A DNA stretch of 64,000 nt from a virus: IMG/VR virus record IMGVR_UViG_3300037264_007501, positions 1-64,000 of that record, one strand, 5' to 3'. The notes beneath the pieces were generated by a model, which did not search any database, was not told where the DNA came from, and saw only the letters and a list, made by a program, of their open reading frames with translations. Within the stretch, counting starts at the first letter, position 1; each line of letters starts with the position of its first letter. Below are positions 2,608-28,070 of the stretch, in pieces. The position numbers were made by a program, and so were the translations under genes.

Positions 2608-3582
2608 CTACTGCGCCTTTAAGACACCCAAAAGGATATCCATTTTTAGGTCTGGGCTTAGGTCAGGATCGTCGAGCATTAGCCCTATCGAGACTGGTAG
2701 CTTCCCAACTATAGGACGGATGGAGGCGACTCTTTGCGCGGTATTGAGGTCGGGGTCTTCCAGCATGAACTGGATAGAAACCGGAATTCCCTTTTTTTGC
2801 AGAACGACTGCGGTCGGCGGTGGCGCAATCGGTGGCGTCGGAGTATCGACGGTGGCAGCAATCTTCCCTTCTCTGATTTTTTTATTCCTCAGATTCTGTA
2901 CTTTTTTTCGCTTTGCAGCTCTCCGTGCTGCGGCCCAGGTCGTTTGCTCGGACCACTTCCCGTCTTTCGCACCTGAAACGACCCCGTCATCATTCAACAT
3001 GATCGCTATTTTTGCGTAGGAAATACCTCCGGAGTAAAGGCGCGTAATCCTGGTCGCTGCTATTTTTCTTTCTTCAGGGGTGAGTTTTCTGCTTCCATCT
3101 AGGCCGCATCCTCTCGTTCGCGGCGGCTCAGTCTCTTGCTGCAGTACTTCCGGCTTCGGTTCCGGTCTGGGTAAAATCCTTCCAAAGGTATCTGGAACCG
3201 GCGCTGACTTGGGGTGATATACAGAGACGTGCATTGCCATTTCTGAGACGGTTCCTTTAAAGAAACAATGCGGGGCTCCACACTCGATCCTGGCTTTCTG
3301 CGCTTCCTTGAGTAGAGCTTGCTCCACCTCCTTGGGCGAAGCTGGCACCATCTTCACCATGTCACCCACTTTTGCAGTGAGTGGACCTGAGCGTATTAGT
3401 TTAGAAGTATTGGCTCTGCGTATCACCATCTCGACCTCGGCGGTGGTGTGGGGGTTCTCCTTGTTGCCATTGCTGATAGCGACGGTGTTCTGATCTTTTT
3501 TCCATATGGTCGTTTTTTTGCTCGCCCTGTGCAGCTCAAAGCCACTCTTAATGAGTGCCTTTCTCGCTTCATTATTCGTCAT
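2608..3582 (-). CDS. Multidomain DNA/RNA-binding-like protein (HicA-like, zinc finger, recombinase-type HTH)
   Basis: 324 aa, not assignable to one family. Residues 1-55 (ALIKSGFELHRASKKTTIWK ... NPHTTAEVEMVIRRA) resemble the HicA mRNA-interferase fold, but the catalytic-like His position is not obvious. Residues about 99-125 contain C-x4-C-x11-H-x4-H, a zinc-finger-like pattern. Residues about 165-225 (ITRLYSGGISYAKIAIMLND) look like the HTH/linker region of serine recombinases. The C-terminus carries a tandem duplication: PVSIQFMLEDPDL and PVSIGLMLDDPDL, 34 residues apart. The start has a GGGAGAACACATG ribosome site and an upstream extended -10. A regulator or nucleic-acid-binding role is inference. 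Confidence 0.6.
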   Translation of the reverse strand: MTNNEARKALIKSGFELHRASKKTTIWKKDQNTVAISNGNKENPHTTAEVEMVIRRANTSKLIRSGPLTAKVGDMVKMVPASPKEVEQALLKEAQKARIECGAPHCFFKGTVSEMAMHVSVYHPKSAPVPDTFGRILPRPEPKPEVLQQETEPPRTRGCGLDGSRKLTPEERKIAATRITRLYSGGISYAKIAIMLNDDGVVSGAKDGKWSEQTTWAAARRAAKRKKVQNLRNKKIREGKIAATVDTPTPPIAPPPTAVVLQKKGIPVSIQFMLEDPDLNTAQRVASIRPIVGKLPVSIGLMLDDPDLSPDLKMDILLGVLKAQ

Positions 3583-3612
3583 GTGTTCTCCCTGGGTCAG
3601 TTGTATATCTAC

Positions 3613-3629
3613 TACTTTACTTATACCAA
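3613..3629 (-). promoter_or_regulatory. Extended -10 promoter for the 2608-3582 gene
   Basis: The minus strand reads TTGGTATAAG (plus 3620-3629): a TG-n-TATAAG extended -10, 38 nt before the start codon. The same TGGTATAAG appears upstream of minus genes at 23157 and 52328. No convincing -35 is seen. Confidence 0.5.
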
Positions 3630-3664
3630 TTAAAAAGGGCCCCTCCCGTTTCCAGGAGGGGCCC
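3628..3664 (-). terminator. Intrinsic terminator of the trypsin gene
   Basis: On the minus strand GGGCCCCTCCTGGAAACGGGAGGGGCCC forms a strong stem (10-bp arms) followed by TTTTTAATT. It lies just after the stop of the 3693-4604 gene and just before the promoter of the next minus gene. Confidence 0.85.
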
Positions 3665-3692: not shown

Positions 3693-4604
3693 TTAGCGAT
3701 GACCATCAAAGAACTGCATCAGGAACTCGAACTGACGTTTGATGAAGTCGAGCTCGGCCTCGTTGCCGGGCAGCACTTCAGCATCGAACTTGACCATCTT
3801 GCTCGTGCCGGAGAACTTCATCGGCTGGGGCTGCGGGGTGCCGCAGTCCTTGGTAATGCCACAGACGATGGCGTTGTTGTTACTCGCACTCCAGGCCTTG
3901 ATGAAGTCCGTGCTCTCCACGATATCCAACCGGGCGTTGTAGTTCGTATCCTGGATGTTCCCCTTGGAGTTGATGCCGAGAAGAAGGGGTTTCGTGATGT
4001 CGGCGATATCAAATGCTGGGCCTCCCGAGTCGCCGAAGCAAAGTGCCGCTCCTCCTGGGGCCTTGCCGCTGACCACATCGTAGCCAGATATCCCCGTGAT
4101 CCGGTTCTTACCCTGTCGCAGCTGCCCGTCGTTGCCACCACCGCCACCTGGGTTGGTGCAGCCGTAGCCAAAGATCTGGATATCGACCCCGTTGACGACC
4201 TTGCCGCCGATGCTGGCCGGCTTCAGATCAGCAATCTCTTGGTCGAGGTAAACCATGGCAATGTCGTGGTCCTTGCCCGGGTAGATACTGCTGCGCGTGG
4301 CCGTACCGGTGAAGACCGCGTTGGGGTCACTGATGATGTTGGGCCGGGTCGCACGGAGCTTGAAGGTTACCTTGGCTCCGTTTTGCGCGCAGTGCGCGGC
4401 CGTAATGACGGCACGGGGACCAACGATGGTAGCCGTGCAGCGGGCGTTGTTGACGCTGATGTAGACCACCTCCGGAAAGAGCGGCAAAGGCACCACGGTT
4501 CCATTGATGAGTGTTGGGTGGATAGGCTGGCCCTGGGCATCCTTGAAGATAGGATCGCCGGCCATGGCCGTACTGCAAAGCAACGACAGAAGTAGTGTTT
4601 TCAT
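3693..4604 (-). CDS. Secreted trypsin-like serine protease (S1 family)
   Basis: 303 aa from ATG at 4604, which overlaps the previous stop as ATGA. Residues 1-16 (MKTLLLSLLCSTAMAG) are a Sec signal peptide, so the enzyme is exported. The catalytic triad is visible: H71 in TAAHC, D114 in HDIAMVYL and S193 in CFGDSGGP. Cys56 and Cys72 bracket the His as in trypsins. There is no long propeptide. The C-terminal 60 residues beyond the protease fold are of unknown role. The downstream partner is a terminator and the upstream partner is a small HExxH protein. A secreted trypsin is unusual for a phage. It could attack the host envelope, outer-membrane proteins or competing factors; the target is unknown. 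Confidence 0.93.
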   Translation of the reverse strand: MKTLLLSLLCSTAMAGDPIFKDAQGQPIHPTLINGTVVPLPLFPEVVYISVNNARCTATIVGPRAVITAAHCAQNGAKVTFKLRATRPNIISDPNAVFTGTATRSSIYPGKDHDIAMVYLDQEIADLKPASIGGKVVNGVDIQIFGYGCTNPGGGGGNDGQLRQGKNRITGISGYDVVSGKAPGGAALCFGDSGGPAFDIADITKPLLLGINSKGNIQDTNYNARLDIVESTDFIKAWSASNNNAIVCGITKDCGTPQPQPMKFSGTSKMVKFDAEVLPGNEAELDFIKRQFEFLMQFFDGHR

Positions 4605-4885
4605 CGTCCGTATGCCTCTTTCTCGAAGGGGTGTTTGAGGTACGCTAACCGGTGTGAGCGGTACTGGACAAGCCCTTTCAGGTAGTACCACAGGTACTTG
4701 ACGTAGAATCCAAAGACTCCGTGAGTGTCCATCTGCCGCTGGTGCACCATCTCGTGCTCGAGCAGCGCCTTTGAGACCTGCTCTTTGGCGTCTCTGAAAA
4801 GGATGGTGCGGCCGAAGACAGCGCCCTCGTACTTTTTCATCCATGGCATCTTGAAGTACCAGTGGGAGTATTTGATGGTGGTCAT
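4601..4885 (-). CDS. Small HExxH zinc-metallopeptidase-like protein
   Basis: 94 aa. The motif LLEHEMVHQRQ (H44, E45, H48) is the HExxH zinc-protease signature in a predicted helix. The rest is rich in aromatic and basic residues (KYLWYYLKGLV, KHPFEKEAYG). No signal peptide is seen. It forms a two-gene unit with the trypsin, with an ATGA start/stop overlap. The upstream minus-strand sequence AGTAGTAGATATAC, found also before the 3582 gene, sits directly against the start codon. Enzymatic activity is inferred only from the motif and its small size. Confidence 0.7.
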   Translation of the reverse strand: MTTIKYSHWYFKMPWMKKYEGAVFGRTILFRDAKEQVSKALLEHEMVHQRQMDTHGVFGFYVKYLWYYLKGLVQYRSHRLAYLKHPFEKEAYGR

Positions 4886-4926
4886 GCGTATATCTACTAC
4901 TGCAGCGCGCAGCTACAGGCAAGACG

Positions 4927-4935
4927 TGCTATACT
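4927..4935 (+). promoter_or_regulatory. Extended -10 promoter giving a leaderless transcript
   Basis: TG-C-TATACT (4927-4935) lies 7 nt before the ATG at 4943. Transcription would start at or next to the start codon, and no Shine-Dalgarno site precedes this gene. Confidence 0.5.
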
Positions 4936-4942
4936 CTTTCTG

Positions 4943-5080
4943 ATGAGCCGCCCCACTTGCCCAACTTGCGGAACAGTGGAGTGTGTCCAACGCACTACTC
5001 TCGTCGTTGATGGTCAGCCGCGCCTCTTTTTCGTTTGCGTTGAGTGCAACGAAGTCATCGCTGAAGTCGTAGTCAACTAA
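4943..5080 (+). CDS. Small zinc-ribbon protein
   Basis: 45 aa. Two Cys pairs, CPTC near the N-terminus and CVEC at about residues 33-36, separated by a strand-rich middle, make a classic zinc ribbon. The start was chosen at ATG 4943 because the -10 element lies just before it. It opens the plus-strand unit that contains the secreted 230-aa protein and the papain-like protease. Its function is unknown. Confidence 0.65.
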   Translation: MSRPTCPTCGTVECVQRTTLVVDGQPRLFFVCVECNEVIAEVVVN

Positions 5081-5093
5081 CAAGGAGATCCAC

Positions 5094-5786
5094 ATGAAAG
5101 CATTCATGCTTTTGTTGGTCCCGTTTGTCGCCATGGGTGATATCCGGTCCGACGTTGAAGCTTACCAATTGGCGTCCAAGGGGCTGGTTCCACGTATCAA
5201 TCTCCTTGGCGCACACAACGAAGTCAGCCGCGTGGCCCAGGACCTCGAGAACGGCAAGCTCCGTCAGCGTGTGCAGATGGCGACTGACGCCATCATTCGC
5301 ACGGCCGGCGCGCGCTTACGGGACAAAGGCTTCGTGGCCGAGGCCAACACCATTGAAAGCGAGTGGGCGTTCGTTTACATGCCCATATTCACCGACCGAG
5401 ATATCGGTGACCACAAGCCGCTTTCGGACTGGCTTGCAAAAACCTACGACGCCATTGAGGCAAAGCTCGGCATCCAACTGTGTACACTGTTGCATCTTTC
5501 AGATTTGAAAACCATCAACTTTGGAATTCCAGTTGTGTTCGACCCATGCAACGCTGAGTGGGACATGGTCGAATACGCCAAGCACTTTGTCGGCGACGAG
5601 AAGTACTTCGGATTGGCCCCCGTTATTACCTACTGGTGCGTATCCATCGCATGCACGGCGGCCACCTGGGGAGCAGGCATCGGCTGGCTCTGTGGACCGC
5701 TTGGGTCTGGGGCCGAGCTGGTCATGGCGCGATTCATTGCGCCGAAGCTGTCGGACAGGATCTACACCGCTGCTTGCAAGAAGTAG
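5094..5786 (+). CDS. Exported protein of unknown function
   Basis: 230 aa. The start follows an AAGGAG site 7 nt upstream. Residues 1-15 (MKAFMLLLVPFVAMG) form a signal peptide. The mature part is helical with Cys at about 150, 173, 203, 208, 220 and 228, suitable for periplasmic disulfides. A hydrophobic segment (residues about 195-215, VSIACTAATWGAGIGWL) could be membrane-active. It lies between the zinc-ribbon gene and the papain-like protease. I do not recognise a family. Confidence 0.75.
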   Translation: MKAFMLLLVPFVAMGDIRSDVEAYQLASKGLVPRINLLGAHNEVSRVAQDLENGKLRQRVQMATDAIIRTAGARLRDKGFVAEANTIESEWAFVYMPIFTDRDIGDHKPLSDWLAKTYDAIEAKLGIQLCTLLHLSDLKTINFGIPVVFDPCNAEWDMVEYAKHFVGDEKYFGLAPVITYWCVSIACTAATWGAGIGWLCGPLGSGAELVMARFIAPKLSDRIYTAACKK

Positions 5787-5793
5787 TCAGTGT

Positions 5794-5851
5794 CCGATCG
5801 GTTACAGAGTGGCCGTTTTAGCGATAGAATAGGCCATCTGTAACCGATCGG
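5794..5851. repeat. 20-bp inverted repeat in front of the papain-like protease gene
   Basis: CCGATCGGTTACAGAGTGGCC (5794-5814) is inverted as GGCCATCTGTAACCGATCGG (5832-5851), with one inserted base and a 17-nt loop. No U-run follows. A weak promoter-like pair (TTACAG 5802-5807, 17 bp, TAGAAT 5825-5830) lies inside, so this may be an operator or leader structure rather than a terminator. Confidence 0.6.
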
Positions 5852-5866
5852 TACCAGGGAGACCCC

Positions 5867-6817
5867 ATGAAGCTTATTCTCCTCTTTATGATTGTGTGTG
5901 CCATTGCGCTTCCCGCTCCCAAGCACAAGACCTACAAGTCCAGTAAGAAGCACCGCCACCACATGGGGCTCAAGAAGAAGAAGCTGAACAAAGAGCGGCG
6001 TAAGATGCGTGCGGCCGCCATTCCCATCCCGGACAAGCTCGACCTTCGGCCGAACCTGACGCCCATTTTGGACCAGGGCTCTTGCGGGTCTTGCTGGTCG
6101 TTTAGCCTGACTTCCATGCTGAGAGATGGGTACACGCTGAAGGGCATGGACCCGGGCCCAGTCTCGCAGCAGTACTTAGTCGATTGCGCTGAAACCAGCG
6201 CGGGTTGCAGCGGGGGGTATTTCGATGCTGCCGACTACCTGCAGCTCCCGAAGGGCTCGCCATCGGCAGAAGCGTACCCGTACCGCGGGGTTACTTCGGC
6301 CTGTCAAAAGGTCCCGCCAGTAAAGGGCGTCGTCGGCTGGCACATGCTCGGTGACGCTGATGGCGTGAGCACTCTGGATATCGAGTCGTACATGGCTCGG
6401 TCAGGAAAGCCGGTTTCAATCACGGTCGCGGCCGCTGCCGGCGAATGGGAAAGCTACGACTCTGGCATCTACAACGACTGTGTCTATGCCGGGGTGGATC
6501 ACATGATCAACATAGTCGGCTGGGACAACGAGGGCGCCTCCTTCGATGCCAAGGGGAATCTACCGCCTGGTAAGGGCATCTGGATCCTCCGCAACTCCTG
6601 GGGCCGCCGCTGGGGTGAGGAGGGCTGGATGCGCACCAAGATGACGGACGAGTCCGGAAAGAAGTGTAACAACGTCGCCGACGAAGCCGCGTATTTCGAC
6701 TTTGAGGCGCCTGCACCGCCACCGGAACCCGGCAGCAGCAATAGCTGGCCTATTGCGATTGGTTCTCTGCTGGGCCTCGGGCTGCTCCTAGCCCTCAGAG
6801 CCAAGAAGAGGAAGTAG
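5867..6817 (+). CDS. Secreted, membrane-anchored papain-like cysteine protease (C1A)
   Basis: 316 aa. Residues 1-16 are a signal peptide. Residues 20-48 are extremely Lys/Arg/His-rich and could be a short propeptide. The catalytic core is clear: Q70 and C76 in DQGSCGSCWSF, H212 in VDHMINIVGW and N243 in RNSWGRRWG, plus the papain GCSGG motif at about 113-117. After a Pro-rich linker (APAPPPEPGS) comes a transmembrane helix (about 293-311) and a terminal KKRK, the layout of a C-terminal anchor or sorting signal. Start: GGGAGACCCC precedes the ATG. Cysteine proteases of this class normally cut proteins outside the cytoplasm; the target here is unknown. Confidence 0.93.
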   Translation: MKLILLFMIVCAIALPAPKHKTYKSSKKHRHHMGLKKKKLNKERRKMRAAAIPIPDKLDLRPNLTPILDQGSCGSCWSFSLTSMLRDGYTLKGMDPGPVSQQYLVDCAETSAGCSGGYFDAADYLQLPKGSPSAEAYPYRGVTSACQKVPPVKGVVGWHMLGDADGVSTLDIESYMARSGKPVSITVAAAAGEWESYDSGIYNDCVYAGVDHMINIVGWDNEGASFDAKGNLPPGKGIWILRNSWGRRWGEEGWMRTKMTDESGKKCNNVADEAAYFDFEAPAPPPEPGSSNSWPIAIGSLLGLGLLLALRAKKRK

Positions 6818-6835: not shown

Positions 6836-7132
6836 TTAGCGCGCGTGGAGGTGTCCGTTTGTGGTATTGAGGAATTTGTTGAATATCTCCCAAGTGTTAT
6901 TTGAGAGAGTCTTGTAGCCAGGGCTCAAGCCGTCCATCTCGGAGAGGTGCTTGGCCAGTATGATCCACGCCTTCCAGATATCGTGCGGGTCCATAGCTTT
7001 GAGGGTCTCGCCGTCGATAGAGAACATCCCCTGCTCACCGTCTTGAATCATGAAGGCGAGCAGGGCCTTGGATTCGCCTTCTATTCCCTTGTGGCCGCCG
7101 TCCTTCTCGTAGCTGATTTTGAACTTGAGCAC
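6836..7132 (-). CDS. Hypothetical protein
   Basis: 98 aa if started at GTG 7132 (LKFKISYEKDGG...). The frame stays open to a TTG at 7174, but that start would overlap the endolysin start on the other strand. The protein is soluble and mixed alpha/beta, with MDPHDIWKAWIILAKHLSEM predicted as a helix. It is alone on the minus strand between two plus-strand units, and convergent with the papain gene. No family recognised. Confidence 0.5.
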   Translation of the reverse strand: MLKFKISYEKDGGHKGIEGESKALLAFMIQDGEQGMFSIDGETLKAMDPHDIWKAWIILAKHLSEMDGLSPGYKTLSNNTWEIFNKFLNTTNGHLHAR

Positions 7133-7138
7133 AGTTAT

Positions 7139-7167
7139 TTGTACCTGCGGCTGACCGCGATTACAAT
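7139..7167 (+). promoter_or_regulatory. Promoter of the endolysin gene, leaderless geometry
   Basis: TTGTAC (7139-7144), 17-bp spacer, TACAAT (7162-7167), then 6 nt to the ATG at 7174. Both hexamers and the spacing fit a sigma70-type promoter, and transcription would begin at the start codon. No Shine-Dalgarno site is present. Confidence 0.6.
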
Positions 7168-7173
7168 GCCTCA

Positions 7174-7629
7174 ATGGACTTCGAAACGGCAGTGCGCATT
7201 GTCATCGCTACTGAAGGCGGCCTAGTCGATGATCCACTCGACCATGGTGGCCTGACCAAACACGGGATCTCCCAGAGAGCATATCCGGAGTTGGATATAC
7301 GGAACCTGACCGTAGACCTGGCCAAGGTCATCTACCGCGTGGACCGGTGGGACCCGTGCAAGTGCGACAAACTCCCGGACGGGCTCCGCCTCCCAGTCTT
7401 TGACATGGCCGTGAACCAGGGCGTGGGTGCGGCCATCCTGACGCTCCAGCGGGCCATGGGGGCCAAAGTGGACGGAGTCATTGGTGCGGGTACTCTTAAG
7501 GCATGTCTTAGGCCGGACGCCAGGGCCCGGTTCACCGCGGCCAGGATCATGCGCTACACCAACACTAAAAACTTCAGCCGATACGGCATGGGTTGGGTTA
7601 CCAGGGCCGTCCAGGCCGTGTTAGACTAA
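7174..7629 (+). CDS. Endolysin, GH108 N-acetylmuramidase-type
   Basis: 151 aa, the usual length for this family. The N-terminal IATEGGLVDDPLDHGGLTKH is the GH108 lysozyme signature, with catalytic Glu14. The C-terminal half (AVNQGVGAAILTLQRAMGA ... VDGVIGAGTLKA) matches the peptidoglycan-binding domain that usually follows. The enzyme cleaves the glycan backbone of peptidoglycan. There is no signal peptide, so a holin is expected for release. The nearby one-TM proteins (8691 gene, 41922 gene, 62064 gene) are candidates, with no direct proof. Confidence 0.9.
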   Translation: MDFETAVRIVIATEGGLVDDPLDHGGLTKHGISQRAYPELDIRNLTVDLAKVIYRVDRWDPCKCDKLPDGLRLPVFDMAVNQGVGAAILTLQRAMGAKVDGVIGAGTLKACLRPDARARFTAARIMRYTNTKNFSRYGMGWVTRAVQAVLD

Positions 7630-7980: not shown

Positions 7981-8111
7981 TCCATGAAACGGAACTGGAG
8001 CGGGCACCGACCTGGCACCTGCATGAGTTTCGGAGTCACAGCCGACTGGCAAGGCGATGACTGAGCCCGGGTAGAGTTATGTGTCCGACTTATCCAAAAC
8101 AGGAGAAAAAC

Positions 8112-8420
8112 ATGAAGAACCTCAGTCGGGGACTACTGTCCCTACTTTCGATACTAACCCTGGCTCTCAATGGGCCGGTCGCGAAGGCGGCGCATGCTCA
8201 CGACGGTGGCCAACAGGTCGCCGCGGAGGCTACCGTTCACGCCAACGCAGCCACGGTAAAAGACAGCTGTTGTGATGATTGCGACTGCTGCGAAGGTGGC
8301 GAATGCACTTGCGAAGACTGCGAATGTTGCGGTGATGGTGGTTGCTGTGAAGAAGGTTCCTGCGAATGTGACGGTTGCGGTAGCCAGCAGCCTAGTGGCA
8401 AGGAGCCGTGTGACTTTTAA
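8112..8420 (+). CDS. Exported Cys/Asp/Glu-rich small protein
   Basis: 102 aa from ATG 8112, preceded by AGGAGAAAAAC. Residues 1-27 are a signal peptide ending AKAAHA. From about residue 53 the protein is a low-complexity repeat of CC, CxxC, CDC and CEC units mixed with Asp, Glu and Gly, with about 19 Cys in under 40 residues. That composition suggests metal binding (metallothionein-like) or heavy disulfide cross-linking outside the cytoplasm. Its coding sequence overlaps the next gene by 11 nt. It could also be a lysis or envelope factor; no family is recognised. Confidence 0.75.
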   Translation: MKNLSRGLLSLLSILTLALNGPVAKAAHAHDGGQQVAAEATVHANAATVKDSCCDDCDCCEGGECTCEDCECCGDGGCCEEGSCECDGCGSQQPSGKEPCDF

Positions 8421-8694
8421 AGAATTCTGGCCGCAGTACTTGGCCCTCCATACGAAGTTTGGCACGCGGTTTTTTCACGTCCTGGGGCTTGTGACTGCGT
8501 ACTCTGTCGTCTTCTCGGCGCTGGTTCACTGGCAGCTTTGGTACATAGCCGCGGCTCCCATGTTTGGATACGGTCTCGCTTTCTCCGGCCACTTCTGGGT
8601 TGAGCACAATATGCCAGCCTCATTCAAGCATCCGCTGCTGTCGTTTCTCGCCGATCATCGGATGGCTTACCTAACGCTCCGAGGGAGACTATGA
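8410..8694 (+). CDS. DUF962 / Mpo1-like membrane protein
   Basis: 94 aa from GTG 8410, with AGGAG directly upstream. The sequence follows the DUF962 pattern: LHTKFGTRFFHVLGL near the N-terminus, GHFWVEHNMPASFKHPL and LADHRMAY near the C-terminus, with two hydrophobic segments between. In yeast Mpo1 these His residues bind iron for alpha-oxidation of 2-hydroxy fatty acids. Bacterial relatives are uncharacterised. It overlaps the preceding Cys-rich gene and shares ATGA with the next, so the three are translated together. Confidence 0.8.
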   Translation: MTFKEFWPQYLALHTKFGTRFFHVLGLVTAYSVVFSALVHWQLWYIAAAPMFGYGLAFSGHFWVEHNMPASFKHPLLSFLADHRMAYLTLRGRL

Positions 8695-17064: not shown

Positions 17065-17304
17065 TCATTGGAGGCTTCGAATGGCTATGACCTTGGCCTT
17101 TTGCGTGTCTGTATATCTACGCTTCTCGTGCCACGGGTCACCGGGGCCAGACCGGTACACACTGCGAGAGTCATCGATCCATCTTGCCAGCGTGGCGTTG
17201 GCAATCTTTGCCACGAGCTTGTAGACGGAGTCAAAGAGGCTGCACACCGGGGACCCGTCATTGACGGAGTCATTGAAGTGGTCAGGCGTAAACTGCCAGT
17301 CCAT
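17065..17304 (-). CDS. Hypothetical protein
   Basis: 79 aa with a strong AGGAGGCGTT site before ATG. Contains WIDDSRSVYRSGPGDPWHEK and a basic C-terminus. Located 36 nt ahead of the polymerase start and probably co-transcribed with it. No family recognised. Confidence 0.65.
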   Translation of the reverse strand: MDWQFTPDHFNDSVNDGSPVCSLFDSVYKLVAKIANATLARWIDDSRSVYRSGPGDPWHEKRRYTDTQKAKVIAIRSLQ

Positions 17305-17566: not shown

Positions 17567-17624
17567 CAACTGCAAGTATGGACTTGTTGCCACGGATTGC
17601 ACCGGTGGCCGCGGCAAAAGTTTT

Positions 17625-18026
17625 TGGAGGTAGCGGGGATCGAACCCGCGTCCAGAGTGCGTCATCAATTAAGTCCCACGAGCGTCTCCCGTTTAAAGCC
17701 TGGGCAGGCTGTAGGGGCAACCCTTTCGGATGGCCCTCCACCATCTGGTGTTGTCTCACGGTCCAGCAACCGCACTCACTCTCATTAGGGGGGAGGAGGC
17801 AACCCTTTTGCTGAGTTCTGTTGCCAGGCCTTCAGCGCCCCGATCGCTTTGCCCTCAGTGAAGAGGGTTAGGCGGCCATACGTTGACTTGCAACCTTGCG
17901 GCCGAAGTCGACGTGTACAACATTGCTGTTGTTACTTGTGTTTTGCCTATCCGTTTTAAGGAGTGGCTAGGCTAGCTCCGCTCGCACCCGATCGAATCAG
18001 TACCCTGTCGAAACCATTACACCCCC
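17625..18026 (-). ncRNA. ssrA: Transfer-messenger RNA (tmRNA)
   Basis: 402 nt, one-piece form. The 5' end is GGGGGTGTAATGGTTTCGACAGG (starting at 18026), the standard tmRNA start. The 3' end is GGACGCGGGTTCGATCCCCGC-TACCTCC-A, with a perfect T-arm. The acceptor stem GGGGGUG/UACCUCC forms 7 bp with a G3-U70 wobble, the identity mark for alanyl-tRNA synthetase. CCA is not encoded (AAAA follows). The tag frame ends CAA CGT ATG GCC GCC TAA (stop at 17870-17868), giving ...SQRMAA, close to the usual -LAA degron. The resume codon is uncertain. It would rescue stalled ribosomes and tag the products. Confidence 0.93.
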
Positions 18027-19896: not shown

Positions 19897-20367
19897 TTAC
19901 TTTAGATAGCTGCGGACCGCCTCAAATAAAGTGCGGACCGTCTCGGATCCAGCACTGAATCTGCGCAGGAGTCTGGTCTCTATCGTGCACACTTCGTTGA
20001 CGCAAGACTCGACGTCAGTGGTGAGCGCGGCCGCAGGCAACGACAAGCCGCTCTCTTGGAAGTAGGTGCGGTATATCTGGCGGCGGAAGTCGGGCTGCAT
20101 ATCCAGGCCAACTCCGAGTTTGGCTTTGTAGGCGGCTACTCCGGCTTCGGTTGGCTGAGAGGCGGGGTGGACGTCGGTCACTACGTAGACTGTGATGTAG
20201 GCCCGGGGGTCTAGCTTTCCTTTATGTCGGTCCACTTCTGGGATTTCTTCGTTGCACCCCCCGCACCATGGCGCAGAAAAGAGGAGCAGGTGTACGTTGT
20301 CATATCGTTCGTGTGGGGTAGGCGAAGCACTGCATGCAGCCAGTAGAAGAAATAAAAGAGCGCGCAT
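19897..20367 (-). CDS. Thioredoxin-fold lipoprotein
   Basis: 156 aa. The lipoprotein signal MRALLFLLLAACSAS has its acylated Cys at residue 12. Then comes a thioredoxin-like strand and active site, LLLFSAPWCGGCNEEIPEVD (C35, C38), as in TlpA/ResA proteins. Later strands (AYITVYVVTDVHP) fit the fold, and a second Cys pair (ESCVNEVC) may form a structural disulfide. It should act in the periplasm, anchored to a membrane, reducing or forming disulfides. The neighbouring exported Cys-rich proteins are possible substrates. Confidence 0.85.
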   Translation of the reverse strand: MRALLFLLLAACSASPTPHERYDNVHLLLFSAPWCGGCNEEIPEVDRHKGKLDPRAYITVYVVTDVHPASQPTEAGVAAYKAKLGVGLDMQPDFRRQIYRTYFQESGLSLPAAALTTDVESCVNEVCTIETRLLRRFSAGSETVRTLFEAVRSYLK

Positions 20368-21165: not shown

Positions 21166-21391
21166 AGACTGCCGTCCATATCCTCTGGTCCCAGCTACAC
21201 CTAAAGGGGCCATTATAGAGATTTGCGCATGTGGAGTTGTAGCGAACTCTGCATGATGCCTCCGGAGCGCCTAAGCTATCCAGAGTCAGTTGCTTTAGGT
21301 TGTAGATATACCCATTTTTATGATTCAACGCAAAAAATCCTTTACCTCTTTTTTCTAGCAGCTGACGAAGAGAACTGAAGATATAGGCCAC
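21026..21391 (-). CDS. Hypothetical protein with long 3' overlap
   Basis: 121 aa from GTG 21391, which overlaps the region of the previous stop (GAGGTGTGAGGTG). Residues 2-75 look like a real domain (IFSSLRQLLEKRGKGFFALN, GYIYNLKQLTLDSLG, YNGPFRCSWDQRIW). The last 45 residues lie in the out-of-frame overlap with the 20968-21165 gene and are low complexity. Coding status is moderately supported by coupling to the gene before it. Confidence 0.45.
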   Translation of the reverse strand: MAYIFSSLRQLLEKRGKGFFALNHKNGYIYNLKQLTLDSLGAPEASCRVRYNSTCANLYNGPFRCSWDQRIWTAVYEKESDEDSESKGGCGSKGSGADQRKERLQANSLSQARFLQNPEAG

Positions 21392-24994: not shown

Positions 24995-26112
24995 AATACG
25001 CCTGGCTCGATAAGCTCGCCGAACAGGGACTCATTAGGCCGGCGGTTCTGGACAGCATCTACGCGGATGTGAACCAAACCGTCAAAGAAGGGGCAGTGGG
25101 CAGTCAGGCACGCGAACTCTTTGAGCGCGCTCTCAACATGGGGGTGATGGTCGGCACCGGAGCAGTCGCCAGCATGGTCGGGCGGCACCTGGGCGAGAAG
25201 AAGCACCTGCAACAGGGCATGGCCAAGATCGTTGCCTCAAGAAGCGCGATCGCGAGCGACCCCGAGTTCCAGGGGTCTGAGGATAAGGCGCAGGCCCGAT
25301 TCGACGAGATCGCTCTCTACGCCCCACACGTTGCCATGAACACGCCACTGGCCAAGCGCGTGGTCAAATCAAAGCTCAACGAGGGGCTGAGCGACAGCGA
25401 CGTACAGGCGCTGGCGTTGCTTCAGGCTCAATATTTTCCGAACGCTTTGCAGACCGACAAGTTTCAGCAGAAGGCCGCCTCTATCAGTCAGGAAAAGATG
25501 GGCGAAATGCTGGCCGATATCTACCTACTCAAGACTGCCGCCACCGACTTTTCAAAGATGACAAAGGTTCGTGGGTCAATGCCGTTCTTGGGCCGCCTTG
25601 GTCGCTATGCCCAGCATGTGGGCATGTACGCTTCTATCCCGCTGGTGGTGGGCGCTGCGGCCGGCGCTGCAAACGTCGCCCTGAGAAAACATGACCAAAA
25701 GTCGCTTGAGAAGAACCTCGAGGCTGCCTTTAGCAAGGCCATGTCCTTGAGCGACAAGGACAAGGAGCCGCTCCACGCCAACAAGGAAAAGGCGCGCCAG
25801 GCTTTCAGCGCCCTCGCCCATTTCGCCCCGCACGTCGCTCTCGAGCCGCAGGCCGCGCGCGCATTCATGACCAAGATCGTGGCCTACGACCAGGGGATGA
25901 ACATCAGCGACATCAAAGACCTGGCCGAGATTCAAAACAACATCAGCAAGAATCAAAAGGACGGGCCGTTTAGGTCGGGGTTCTTGGCTGCGGGCGCCGG
26001 CCTCGGCACCTCTAAGATAGTGCAGAGATCAATGGAAGAGGCTGGGTTTGATTTTGGCGTAGAGGGCAAGGAAGAGTTCGAAGACCCCGGTGGCAAGGTG
26101 CACTACCGCTAA
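24991..26112 (+). CDS. Virion-module protein with an internal duplication
   Basis: 373 aa. Two copies of one helical unit: RFDEIALYAPHVAMNTPLAK (about residues 103-122) and AFSALAHFAPHVALEPQAAR (about 268-287), each preceded by a charged helix with KDKA/KEKAR and followed by a D-V/I-QAL or DIKDLAEIQ helix. Between them are LLKTAATDF (K-T-A motif) and a hydrophobic stretch (YASIPLVVGAAAGAANVAL). A structural or membrane-contact role is likely; no family recognised. It ends in a 1-nt overlap with the protease gene. Confidence 0.65.
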   Translation: MKYAWLDKLAEQGLIRPAVLDSIYADVNQTVKEGAVGSQARELFERALNMGVMVGTGAVASMVGRHLGEKKHLQQGMAKIVASRSAIASDPEFQGSEDKAQARFDEIALYAPHVAMNTPLAKRVVKSKLNEGLSDSDVQALALLQAQYFPNALQTDKFQQKAASISQEKMGEMLADIYLLKTAATDFSKMTKVRGSMPFLGRLGRYAQHVGMYASIPLVVGAAAGAANVALRKHDQKSLEKNLEAAFSKAMSLSDKDKEPLHANKEKARQAFSALAHFAPHVALEPQAARAFMTKIVAYDQGMNISDIKDLAEIQNNISKNQKDGPFRSGFLAAGAGLGTSKIVQRSMEEAGFDFGVEGKEEFEDPGGKVHYR

Positions 26113-28070
26113 TGGACAAGCTACTTCTATTTCAAGGCAAGTCAGAGCGTGGGATATTCACCTACGTCATTGACCATGAGCACGCGCATCTGGTGAAGAC
26201 TGCCGCTGAGTACCACCCGGAGATATCCAACTACATCAACTCGGCCAGACGGATACCGGGGAAGACCCAGATTCTTTTGACGGCGTTGGGCGCTGGCGAG
26301 ATCTGGGGCGATAACCAAAATGGCGATTTTTTCCCAGAGGCGGCTCTTGCGCATGATGGGGCTGACTACGGACATCAGACTTTCAAGCATCACGCCAAGA
26401 TATACAAACACCACATTAACAAGGATCCGCTGGCTAGCTACGGAGATGTAGCTTTGTCAGTTTACAACACCAAGTACCGCCGCGTGGAGCTTATCGTCGT
26501 ATTGGACAATGAAAAGGCACCAGATATCGCCCAACGCATAGACTCCGGCGATTACCCAGACTGGAGCATGGGTACTCGAGTGCCGTTCGATCTGTGTTCC
26601 AACTGCGGCAACAAGGCGCCCAACCGGATTCAGTACTGCGAATGCCTCAAGTACTACATGGGGCGTATCCATCCAGAAACAGGGAAAAAAGTTTACGCCA
26701 TCAATACGATGCCCAAGTTTTTCGACATCAGCCTGGTCCTGATCGGTGCTGATCGCATTGCCAAGACTTTGAAGAAGGTGGCGTCTGCCGGCGGGCAAGT
26801 TGTCGGCTCAGCTCTTCTCGCTGAGAAGATGGCCGACGCCAACAAAGAGGCCGAGATCGAAAAAGAAGTGCCGGCGGAGACTCCTCCCGGGTCGCAGGAC
26901 CTGGTCGACTCCATTCCGGAAGTGAAGGCGCAGGAGCCGGTGTTGCCGCAGCCGCTCCTCGACGGGTTAGGCCAGCATCCTTTGTCGAAGGTATTCTCGA
27001 CTATGGCAATGCTGGGCATCTTGCCCAAGCCGCAGGAGTTTCAGCGCATCGTGTTGATCTCGATCGGCAAGCGAGACATGGCCAATGACCTGGACTCCCG
27101 CAATACCTGCTTTGACCCGATGATGACGGCGGCGCCGGCCGCCGCCCATGAGAAGCTGCTGCGCATTAGCGGCGACGATTTCTCTCCTCAGATCATGGGT
27201 ATGCTGTCTCCGCATGTCCCCGACCGCAGCTACGCCATACCACACTTGGTCCGTCGGGTTCTGCTGCTGTCCAAAACGGCTGCTCCGGAGACGGTGCCCA
27301 CCTTCGTCAAGTGGGCAGGAGACGGCGAGCGGAAACCTTTCGGCATTATCCCAATTATGGCCCTGCTGGCTGGGATGTATGCAGTGCTGGGCAAACGCGC
27401 ACCCGGTGAGGCCGTGGGCAAGATAGACGGCTTGATCGCTAAGCACCCCGGGCTGGCCATGGCATTGGCTGCCTCGGTACCAGCTATCTTCAATCAAGTT
27501 GCGGGCACGAACGTTAGAGGGCAGTATGACGCGTACGGCACTCCAGAAAACCCTGACATGAACGATCTCGGTCGTCGTATTGAGGAACGTCGTCAGCAGC
27601 CGTTTTTGAAAGTGAGCAGCATCATCGGACCCTCAGCCAAAAGATTGTTTCTTGGAGTACCTGCTGCCTATATGGCCTCCGGTCTTCTTCAGAAGCACAG
27701 AAACGCGAACCCATACGATCAAGAGGGCCGCGTGCACAGATTTTTTCGCCAGTATCCTGACCTTGTAGGCGGAGCTGTTGCACTGGATGCCTTTCTCGCC
27801 TTGAAGGGCGGGGGCACACATGGGATTTCTAAAAGAGTGGGTCAGGCTGCCAAGGTTCTCCTTGGAAAGACGGCCGCAATCTTAGAAAAGAACGCTGTAT
27901 CCGCCGACCTGATATCTAGCGGGTTGATCTGGCCCTTGGCTTACGGGCCGGCCAATCTTTCTAGCAGGATCGCAGGAGGCGTCGCCGACCATTTGATTTT
28001 GATGGGATCTAGAAAGATTTTGTCAAAGAAAAATGAGCGGAATACAATAACAAATACCGGGAGGATTTAA
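26112..28070 (+). CDS. Prohead maturation protease-like protein with long C-terminal extension
   Basis: 652 aa. Residues about 40-215 follow the pattern of T4-group/jumbo phage prohead proteases: WGDNQNGDFFPEAAL, HQTFKHHAKIYKHHINKDP, a SYGDVALSVYN-RRVELIVVLD strand pair, DWSMGTRVP and a Cys cluster CSNCGNKA...YCECLK. The His and Ser in these stretches are the likely catalytic residues. The remaining 430 residues hold K-T-A motifs (HLVKTAAEY, LLSKTAAPE, LLGKTAAIL) and hydrophobic helices; self-cleavage there is conceivable. It processes capsid proteins during head assembly. Confidence 0.72.
   Translation: MDKLLLFQGKSERGIFTYVIDHEHAHLVKTAAEYHPEISNYINSARRIPGKTQILLTALGAGEIWGDNQNGDFFPEAALAHDGADYGHQTFKHHAKIYKHHINKDPLASYGDVALSVYNTKYRRVELIVVLDNEKAPDIAQRIDSGDYPDWSMGTRVPFDLCSNCGNKAPNRIQYCECLKYYMGRIHPETGKKVYAINTMPKFFDISLVLIGADRIAKTLKKVASAGGQVVGSALLAEKMADANKEAEIEKEVPAETPPGSQDLVDSIPEVKAQEPVLPQPLLDGLGQHPLSKVFSTMAMLGILPKPQEFQRIVLISIGKRDMANDLDSRNTCFDPMMTAAPAAAHEKLLRISGDDFSPQIMGMLSPHVPDRSYAIPHLVRRVLLLSKTAAPETVPTFVKWAGDGERKPFGIIPIMALLAGMYAVLGKRAPGEAVGKIDGLIAKHPGLAMALAASVPAIFNQVAGTNVRGQYDAYGTPENPDMNDLGRRIEERRQQPFLKVSSIIGPSAKRLFLGVPAAYMASGLLQKHRNANPYDQEGRVHRFFRQYPDLVGGAVALDAFLALKGGGTHGISKRVGQAAKVLLGKTAAILEKNAVSADLISSGLIWPLAYGPANLSSRIAGGVADHLILMGSRKILSKKNERNTITNTGRI

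Follow-up and report, generated by a model that had tools for sequence, protein, structure and literature searches.

Why would a bacteriophage encode exported proteases of the papain and trypsin types, and at what step of infection would they act? The question is raised by a locus in the virus record IMGVR_UViG_3300037264_007501 of IMG/VR, 71,398 bases long, of which bases 1–64,000 (the window) were analysed. An original prediction, made from the sequence alone, had singled out three neighbouring genes, coding for an exported trypsin, a 94-aa protein with an HExxH motif and an exported papain-like enzyme with a C-terminal membrane anchor. All three open reading frames (ORFs) are confirmed in the window; however, they do not form one unit. 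The HExxH and trypsin genes make up a separate operon, flanked by repeats and ended by a terminator, whereas the papain gene is located between a GH108 endolysin gene and the gene of an exported protein, here termed SP5094, neither of which had been mentioned (Table 1). We lean towards the view that the papain and SP5094 constitute an exported-protease lysis module, which would cut envelope proteins after the endolysin has acted; the direct support for such a module comes from sequence families, fold, signal peptides, gene placement and recurrence.

The papain-like protein (316 aa) matches PF00112 in a Pfam profile search and contains the complete catalytic set, namely the oxyanion Gln (Q70), Cys (C76), His (H212) and Asn (N243), at positions that are invariant or near-invariant across 26 aligned homologues. 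Its AlphaFold2 (AF2) model, with a mean predicted local distance difference test (pLDDT) score of 88, aligns with procathepsin K over 244 residues (VIA; Z 30.0, root-mean-square deviation 2.6). The active-site superposition proposed earlier as a check thus holds for the papain, while the trypsin was assessed by sequence only. The modelled fold together with the Q-C-H-N set places the protein in peptidase family C1. The features ascribed to its termini were also recovered: a signal peptide is present at the N-terminus, and a Pro-rich linker is followed by a C-terminal hydrophobic segment ending in KKRK. Because of this segment and its positive-inside KKRK tail, the protease is predicted to be a periplasmic domain tethered to the inner membrane. 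A sorting-signal reading of the tail was rejected, as LPXTG is missing, although the tail alone scores 18.3 bits against LPXTG_anchor; the full-length protein scores 15.0, under the cut-off of 15.9. The pro-region is short (~35 aa) and basic and has no match to Pfam I29, and residues 16–53 of the model align with the prosegment end. The gap between the SP5094 and papain genes contains a near-perfect inverted repeat, CCGATCGGTTACAGA...TCTGTAACCGATCGG, which ends ~13 nt ahead of the papain start and might serve as an operator or, in the RNA, as a regulatory hairpin.

Table 1. Coordinates of the protease locus and associated features in the window
Feature	Position	Strand	Evidence
22-bp direct repeat, copy 1, upstream of minus-strand gene 2608-3582	3595-3616		contains GTAGATATAC on - strand
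Terminator-like stem-loop closing the HExxH-trypsin operon	3637-3664	-	12 pairs, 10 GC, T tail
Exported S1-family (trypsin-fold) protease, accessory operon	3693-4604	-	PF00089 2.5e-16; H71, D114, S193
Putative zinc protease, HExxH, 94 aa	4601-4885	-	PHROG 15610 'protease' 2.3e-10
22-bp direct repeat, copy 2, start of the HExxH-trypsin operon	4880-4901		86% identical, exactly 1285 bp from copy 1
Zinc-ribbon-like ORF, 45 aa, just upstream of SP5094	4943-5080	+	CPTC/CVEC motif
SP5094, exported all-helical protein, phage family not previously filed	5094-5786	+	homologues in 31 viral contigs, AF2
RNA hairpin, SP5094-papain gap	5790-5854	+	-45.5 kcal/mol, z -8.5 vs 200 shuffles
Exported papain-like C1 protease, C-terminal membrane anchor (predicted)	5867-6817	+	PF00112 7.4e-42, catalytic residues, fold, Elusimicrobiota homologues
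Conserved small protein adjoining the endolysin	6836-7174	-	43% identical relative beside endolysin in G001
GH108 endolysin	7174-7629	+	PF05838 2.7e-21, PHROG 315 endolysin 4.6e-40
Lipoprotein, CGGC thioredoxin-like motif	19897-20367	-	Pfam matches under cut-off

The rarity of such proteases among phages, asserted in the original prediction, proved to be true of isolates (50,697 records with two weak papain matches and no trypsin); among metagenomic viruses, C1 papain relatives occur in 55 and S1 trypsin relatives (27–49% identity) in 17 IMG/VR contigs. Alignments were needed as queries, since single-protein scans of the viral contigs for papain, trypsin and terminase gave no match. Signal-peptide-like N-termini are found in 49 out of 57 viral papains; C-terminal anchors similar to that of the window papain are present in L185, L190, L232 and L247, and lipoprotein signals in ten viral papains. 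Placement relative to endolysins was analysed in 50 papain-bearing records, with Amidase_2 (12 records) and M15_3 (9 records) as the only endolysin domains searched. In 17 of these 21 records the endolysin is within 2.5 kb of the papain, compared with a mean of 4.5 and a maximum of 12 across 20,000 trials of random placement; in the window, 0.36 kb separate the papain from the GH108 endolysin, which was assigned by PF05838 above the cut-off and an N-terminal EGG (Glu-Gly-Gly) motif. Given an endolysin next door, the simplest role for the papain is envelope proteolysis at lysis. The earlier suggestion that such proteases may take the host envelope apart during lysis is therefore supported for the papain but not for the HExxH protein, which has no evident signal peptide and so does not belong among the exported proteins.

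SP5094 (230 aa), encoded between the HExxH protein and the papain, has no match in Pfam, PHROG or NCBIfam. Its homologues, retrieved by an alignment-based scan, carry signal-peptide-like N-termini in essentially all cases and conserve GDxxPL, HF and YW motifs and two near-invariant cysteines. The AF2 model is confident (pLDDT 84.9) and has no convincing PDB match (best Foldseek E 0.37); VIA returned only helical-bundle matches of Z 5–6, which may reflect just a common arrangement, and BFVD holds one homologue, uncharacterised. When homologues are collapsed at 70% identity, a papain is encoded in the same record in 14 out of 23 clusters, compared with 5 out of 50 terminase-related phages (Fisher 1e-5), and lies within 1.2 kb of SP5094 in 9 of the 14. 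SP5094 is found in lysis-type clusters of L244, L255, L257, L260 and L269: L244 has an M15 endolysin, SP5094, a holin-like ORF and papain within 3.2 kb, and in L257 a holin-like ORF, SP5094 and papain overlap, while L269 combines SP5094 with a holin-like ORF and an M15 endolysin and has no papain. Since it is present in lysis cassettes devoid of papain, SP5094 would itself play some part in lysis. In L257, L260, L263 and L193 it is immediately preceded by short membrane ORFs, which have a common DAR(K)xG pattern and may represent a new holin family.

These cassettes also bear on the idea that the papain is a maturation protease, which would cleave a phage protein (the endolysin, SP5094 or a holin) and set the timing of lysis rather than attack the host envelope. 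An enzyme tethered to the inner membrane and facing the periplasm would be near the holin and the exported partners, and SP5094 is often adjacent; yet endolysin families vary among the contigs, and many related cassettes have SP5094 and an endolysin without papain, so that processing by papain is not generally required. Of the alternatives considered, this is the one to which we give the least credence.

The trypsin recurs in similar surroundings. In L256, SP5094 is directly followed by an S1 protease that shares 34% identity with the trypsin of the window, and in L279 papain and trypsin lie next to each other in divergent orientation, separated by 0.8 kb, an arrangement like that in the window. 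Exported thioredoxin-fold proteins, which would fit disulfide-bonded periplasmic proteins, adjoin papain in six contigs and follow the trypsin in L274; the thioredoxin-like lipoprotein of the window is located 13 kb away from the protease set. Based on the divergent pair in L279 and the papain-type neighbour of the trypsin in L274, trypsin and papain appear to be interchangeable members of one exported set. Trypsin was found in none of 50 terminase-related records, and SP5094 in none of 10 trypsin-bearing records, although the latter empty result shows little by itself.

Within the window, the trypsin starts at the ATG at 4604 (303 aa) and not at the upstream TTG at 4922. Its H71, D114 and S193 are exactly as first described and follow the PF00089 order, which places it in family S1, and the N-terminal sequence MKTLLLSLLCSTAMA has the look of a Sec signal peptide. 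The protein resembles bacterial S1 trypsins in the catalytic triad, the signal peptide and an activation-type N-terminus (LINGT), but differs from them in being encoded in a separate accessory operon, in a GYGC..GGGGGNDG signature common to the phage homologue in L256 and in having Ala187 (AALCFGDS), six residues ahead of the catalytic Ser, in place of the Asp of position 189 (chymotrypsin numbering); Lys/Arg specificity is therefore not expected. The search for its origin gave only weak matches (28–35%), found in 3 out of 10 Elusimicrobiota genomes and also in Streptomyces plasmids. The stop codon of the HExxH gene overlaps the trypsin start (ATGA), consistent with translational coupling. The HExxH protein has HEMVH at residue 44 and a possible third-ligand Glu in HPFEKEAY, and it shares the motif, the size and the HPFEKEAY-type tail with the small zinc proteases of PHROG 15610 from Riemerella and crAss-like phages. 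In Riemerella phages, these relatives are encoded directly upstream of holin/endolysin genes, the RAP44 copy being directly before the holin, whereas here the partner is the trypsin; the RAP44 position would be a further link to lysis. Owing to the flanking 22-bp repeats and its own terminator, the HExxH-trypsin operon looks like an accessory unit, probably inserted.

The repeats share GTAGATATAC, of which the window holds four exact copies (3603–3612, 4888–4897, 17111–17120 on the minus strand and 21302–21311 on the plus strand) and seven with one mismatch, where ~1 is expected. Three exact copies precede minus-strand genes, including a polymerase gene, making it a possible phage promoter, although two one-mismatch or further sites are in or near coding sequence and the sequence is not clearly conserved in G001, the nearest relative of the virus. 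A sigma-70 promoter scan revealed no excess, counts being at or under the shuffle expectation.

The eukaryotic origin implied by the original prediction is not borne out. Among the matches listed in a scan of 84,980 species genomes, to which the figures that follow refer, the closest relatives of the papain are Elusimicrobiota genes. The ten best cellular papains (L104–L113) are 49–59% identical and form one similarity group, with the next at ≤36%; they come from metagenome-assembled genomes entitled either Elusimicrobia or unclassified ‘bacterium’, with Elusimicrobia as the name on the four best titled. Like the phage protein, these C1 peptidases are exported, and they have the same loop insertions, such as NEGAxFDxxGNLPxGKGIWILRNSWG. 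The genes in L104 and L106 have a common, conserved neighbourhood (MarC-like, NTPase) and are thus taken to be chromosomal, and neither product has a C-terminal anchor; the phage copy differs in having another N-terminal region and the added anchor. Given this affinity, the host probably belongs to the Elusimicrobiota, and no evidence was found for the predatory or social host envisaged earlier. The terminase has its closest isolate-phage relatives (27–31% identity) in large phages, among them Salmonella phage Arash and Vibrio phage D69, and 12 metagenomic relatives are 59–73% identical. The nearest of the related viruses, G001 (152 kb), is syntenic with the window around the terminase-RNase HII region, but gene content between the two genes differs in G001 and other relatives, so that this interval is a variable site.

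The papain could accordingly be seen as a host-derived accessory gene with a role other than lysis, such as nutrient release or an assault on prey or neighbouring cells, that came by chance to lie in a tolerant interval. Its affinity to Elusimicrobiota genes, the variability of the interval and the inserted appearance of the HExxH-trypsin operon would all agree with this. However, in divergent contigs the papain repeatedly lies close to endolysins, far more often than chance would give, the catalytic residues are conserved and the partner SP5094 is phage-specific, being found in none of 294 Elusimicrobiota genomes, although that empty result alone shows little. We consider a chance accessory gene improbable.

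For the lysis module we infer timing, activity, substrates and the role of SP5094 as follows. The papain and SP5094 would be secreted via Sec during infection, and the papain would become tethered by its C-terminal segment at the periplasmic face of the inner membrane, fold there with disulfides and be kept quiet by its pro-region or a partner. Once the GH108 endolysin has opened the peptidoglycan, the papain would cut envelope proteins, either outer-membrane/peptidoglycan tethers or a surface layer, and thereby clear a protein barrier beyond the reach of peptidoglycan hydrolases. SP5094, exported and helical, would be a partner of the papain and may direct it, hold it back or help it. The trypsin would belong to the same functional class as a second protease, having arrived along with the HExxH protein on an accessory operon of their own.

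An exported protease might instead strip surface receptors, sparing progeny loss on debris or infected cells. Viral papains are exported, and some are lipoproteins or membrane-anchored, as are known exclusion proteins. Action at release would also explain a position near lysis genes, and the separate accessory operon of the trypsin is typical of exclusion or accessory genes. Exclusion genes, however, usually belong to the early genes and have no particular association with endolysins, whereas the papain is placed with endolysin and holin genes; we regard receptor destruction or superinfection exclusion as unlikely.

Several observations weigh against the lysis module. No holin was recognised within the window, and several of the holin calls in other contigs are our own reading of short hydrophobic ORFs without family matches. 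Neither Amidase_2 nor M15_3 was detected in 29 out of 50 papain contigs, other endolysin families not having been searched. The amidase-linked papains have a common C-terminal domain and probably represent one lineage, so that there were fewer events than contigs and the cases in the placement test are less independent than it assumes; those linked to M15, transglycosylase-like and GH108 genes seem to be separate. Papain is missing from 9 out of 23 SP5094 clusters. In G001, the papain (31% identical) is 100 kb from the amidase match and 106 kb from SP5094, and linkage to either is therefore not obligatory. Finally, viral papains exceed cellular ones only modestly in the frequency of membrane tethering (14 out of 57 vs 6 out of 68).

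Other genes around the module were also inspected. The plus-strand order is the zinc-ribbon-like ORF (weak match to Pfam Zn_ribbon_TFIIS, 0.0056, under the cut-off), SP5094, papain and endolysin. The small minus-strand protein next to the endolysin has its relative beside the endolysin in G001 as well (p6836 compared with L009). Close to the lysis genes is an Mpo1-like dioxygenase (8272–8694; PF06127, 9.8e-24), unusual for a phage, and a signal-peptide protein (8079–8420) has a very Cys-rich repeat, CCDDCDCCEGGECTCEDCECC; a similar Cys-rich exported ORF is directly upstream of the L193 papain. In the terminase large subunit (1–1056), an intein-like segment interrupts the ATP-binding motif (VVNHN end, then TTFLGN); the record start falls within this segment, and in L009, L010 and L016 an insert likewise has its end at this site. 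Elsewhere, the window encodes a full-length transfer-messenger RNA beside the DNA polymerase region (17622–18026, minus strand; Rfam 78 bits), which ARAGORN missed, and a 652-aa structural-module protein (26112–28070) that weakly matches a head-maturation protease close to the N-terminal end (PHROG 18299, 1.2e-6). The part of the record outside the window encodes a collagen-like Gly-X-Y protein of 301 aa (L002, 5610–6515, minus strand).

In the open-access literature, we found no description of C1 proteases in phage lysis cassettes or of the SP5094 family, and the available part of a review of papain-like proteases (PMC10318531) mentions phages only for CHAP endolysins. The C1, S1, GH108 and HExxH families are already known; what appears to be new is a variant of the phage lysis module, with a function proposed from sequence. 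The recurrence of exported papain/trypsin-type proteases beside endolysins, along with a new partner family, points to a proteolytic step undescribed in the literature searched and offers a testable route to the exit of phages from uncultured phyla such as Elusimicrobiota. It also yields candidate envelope-active enzymes, with SP5094 as a marker family for further modules.

Compared with papain and cathepsins K/L of family C1 (PF00112), the window papain has the same fold, Q-C-H-N set and processing-type precursor but differs in being phage-encoded, in its C-terminal anchor and short basic pro-region and in its lysis-gene neighbours. Holins and endolysins, together with spanins or disruptins, account for the way phages lyse double-membrane hosts; spanins and disruptins carry out the third step in phages of Gram-negative hosts. 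Like them, the papain is predicted to be envelope-tethered, is encoded with holin and endolysin and is proposed to target the barrier remaining after peptidoglycan cleavage. No sequence relation to spanins or disruptins was seen, and identity with spanins was rejected, as both proteins are globular and exported in the models and are neither an i-spanin (TM plus coiled coil) with its o-spanin lipoprotein nor a unimolecular spanin. More broadly, though here we are doubtful, phages of several lineages might have a dedicated proteolytic envelope-breaking step at lysis, carried out by a papain (or an S1 protease) that is exported and tethered to the membrane, along with a helical, phage-specific partner of the SP5094 family and sometimes an exported thioredoxin-fold protein, as an enzymatic alternative to spanins and disruptins. 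Spanins and disruptins act via membrane fusion or disruption and not by proteolysis; the papain may work at the same step as spanins.

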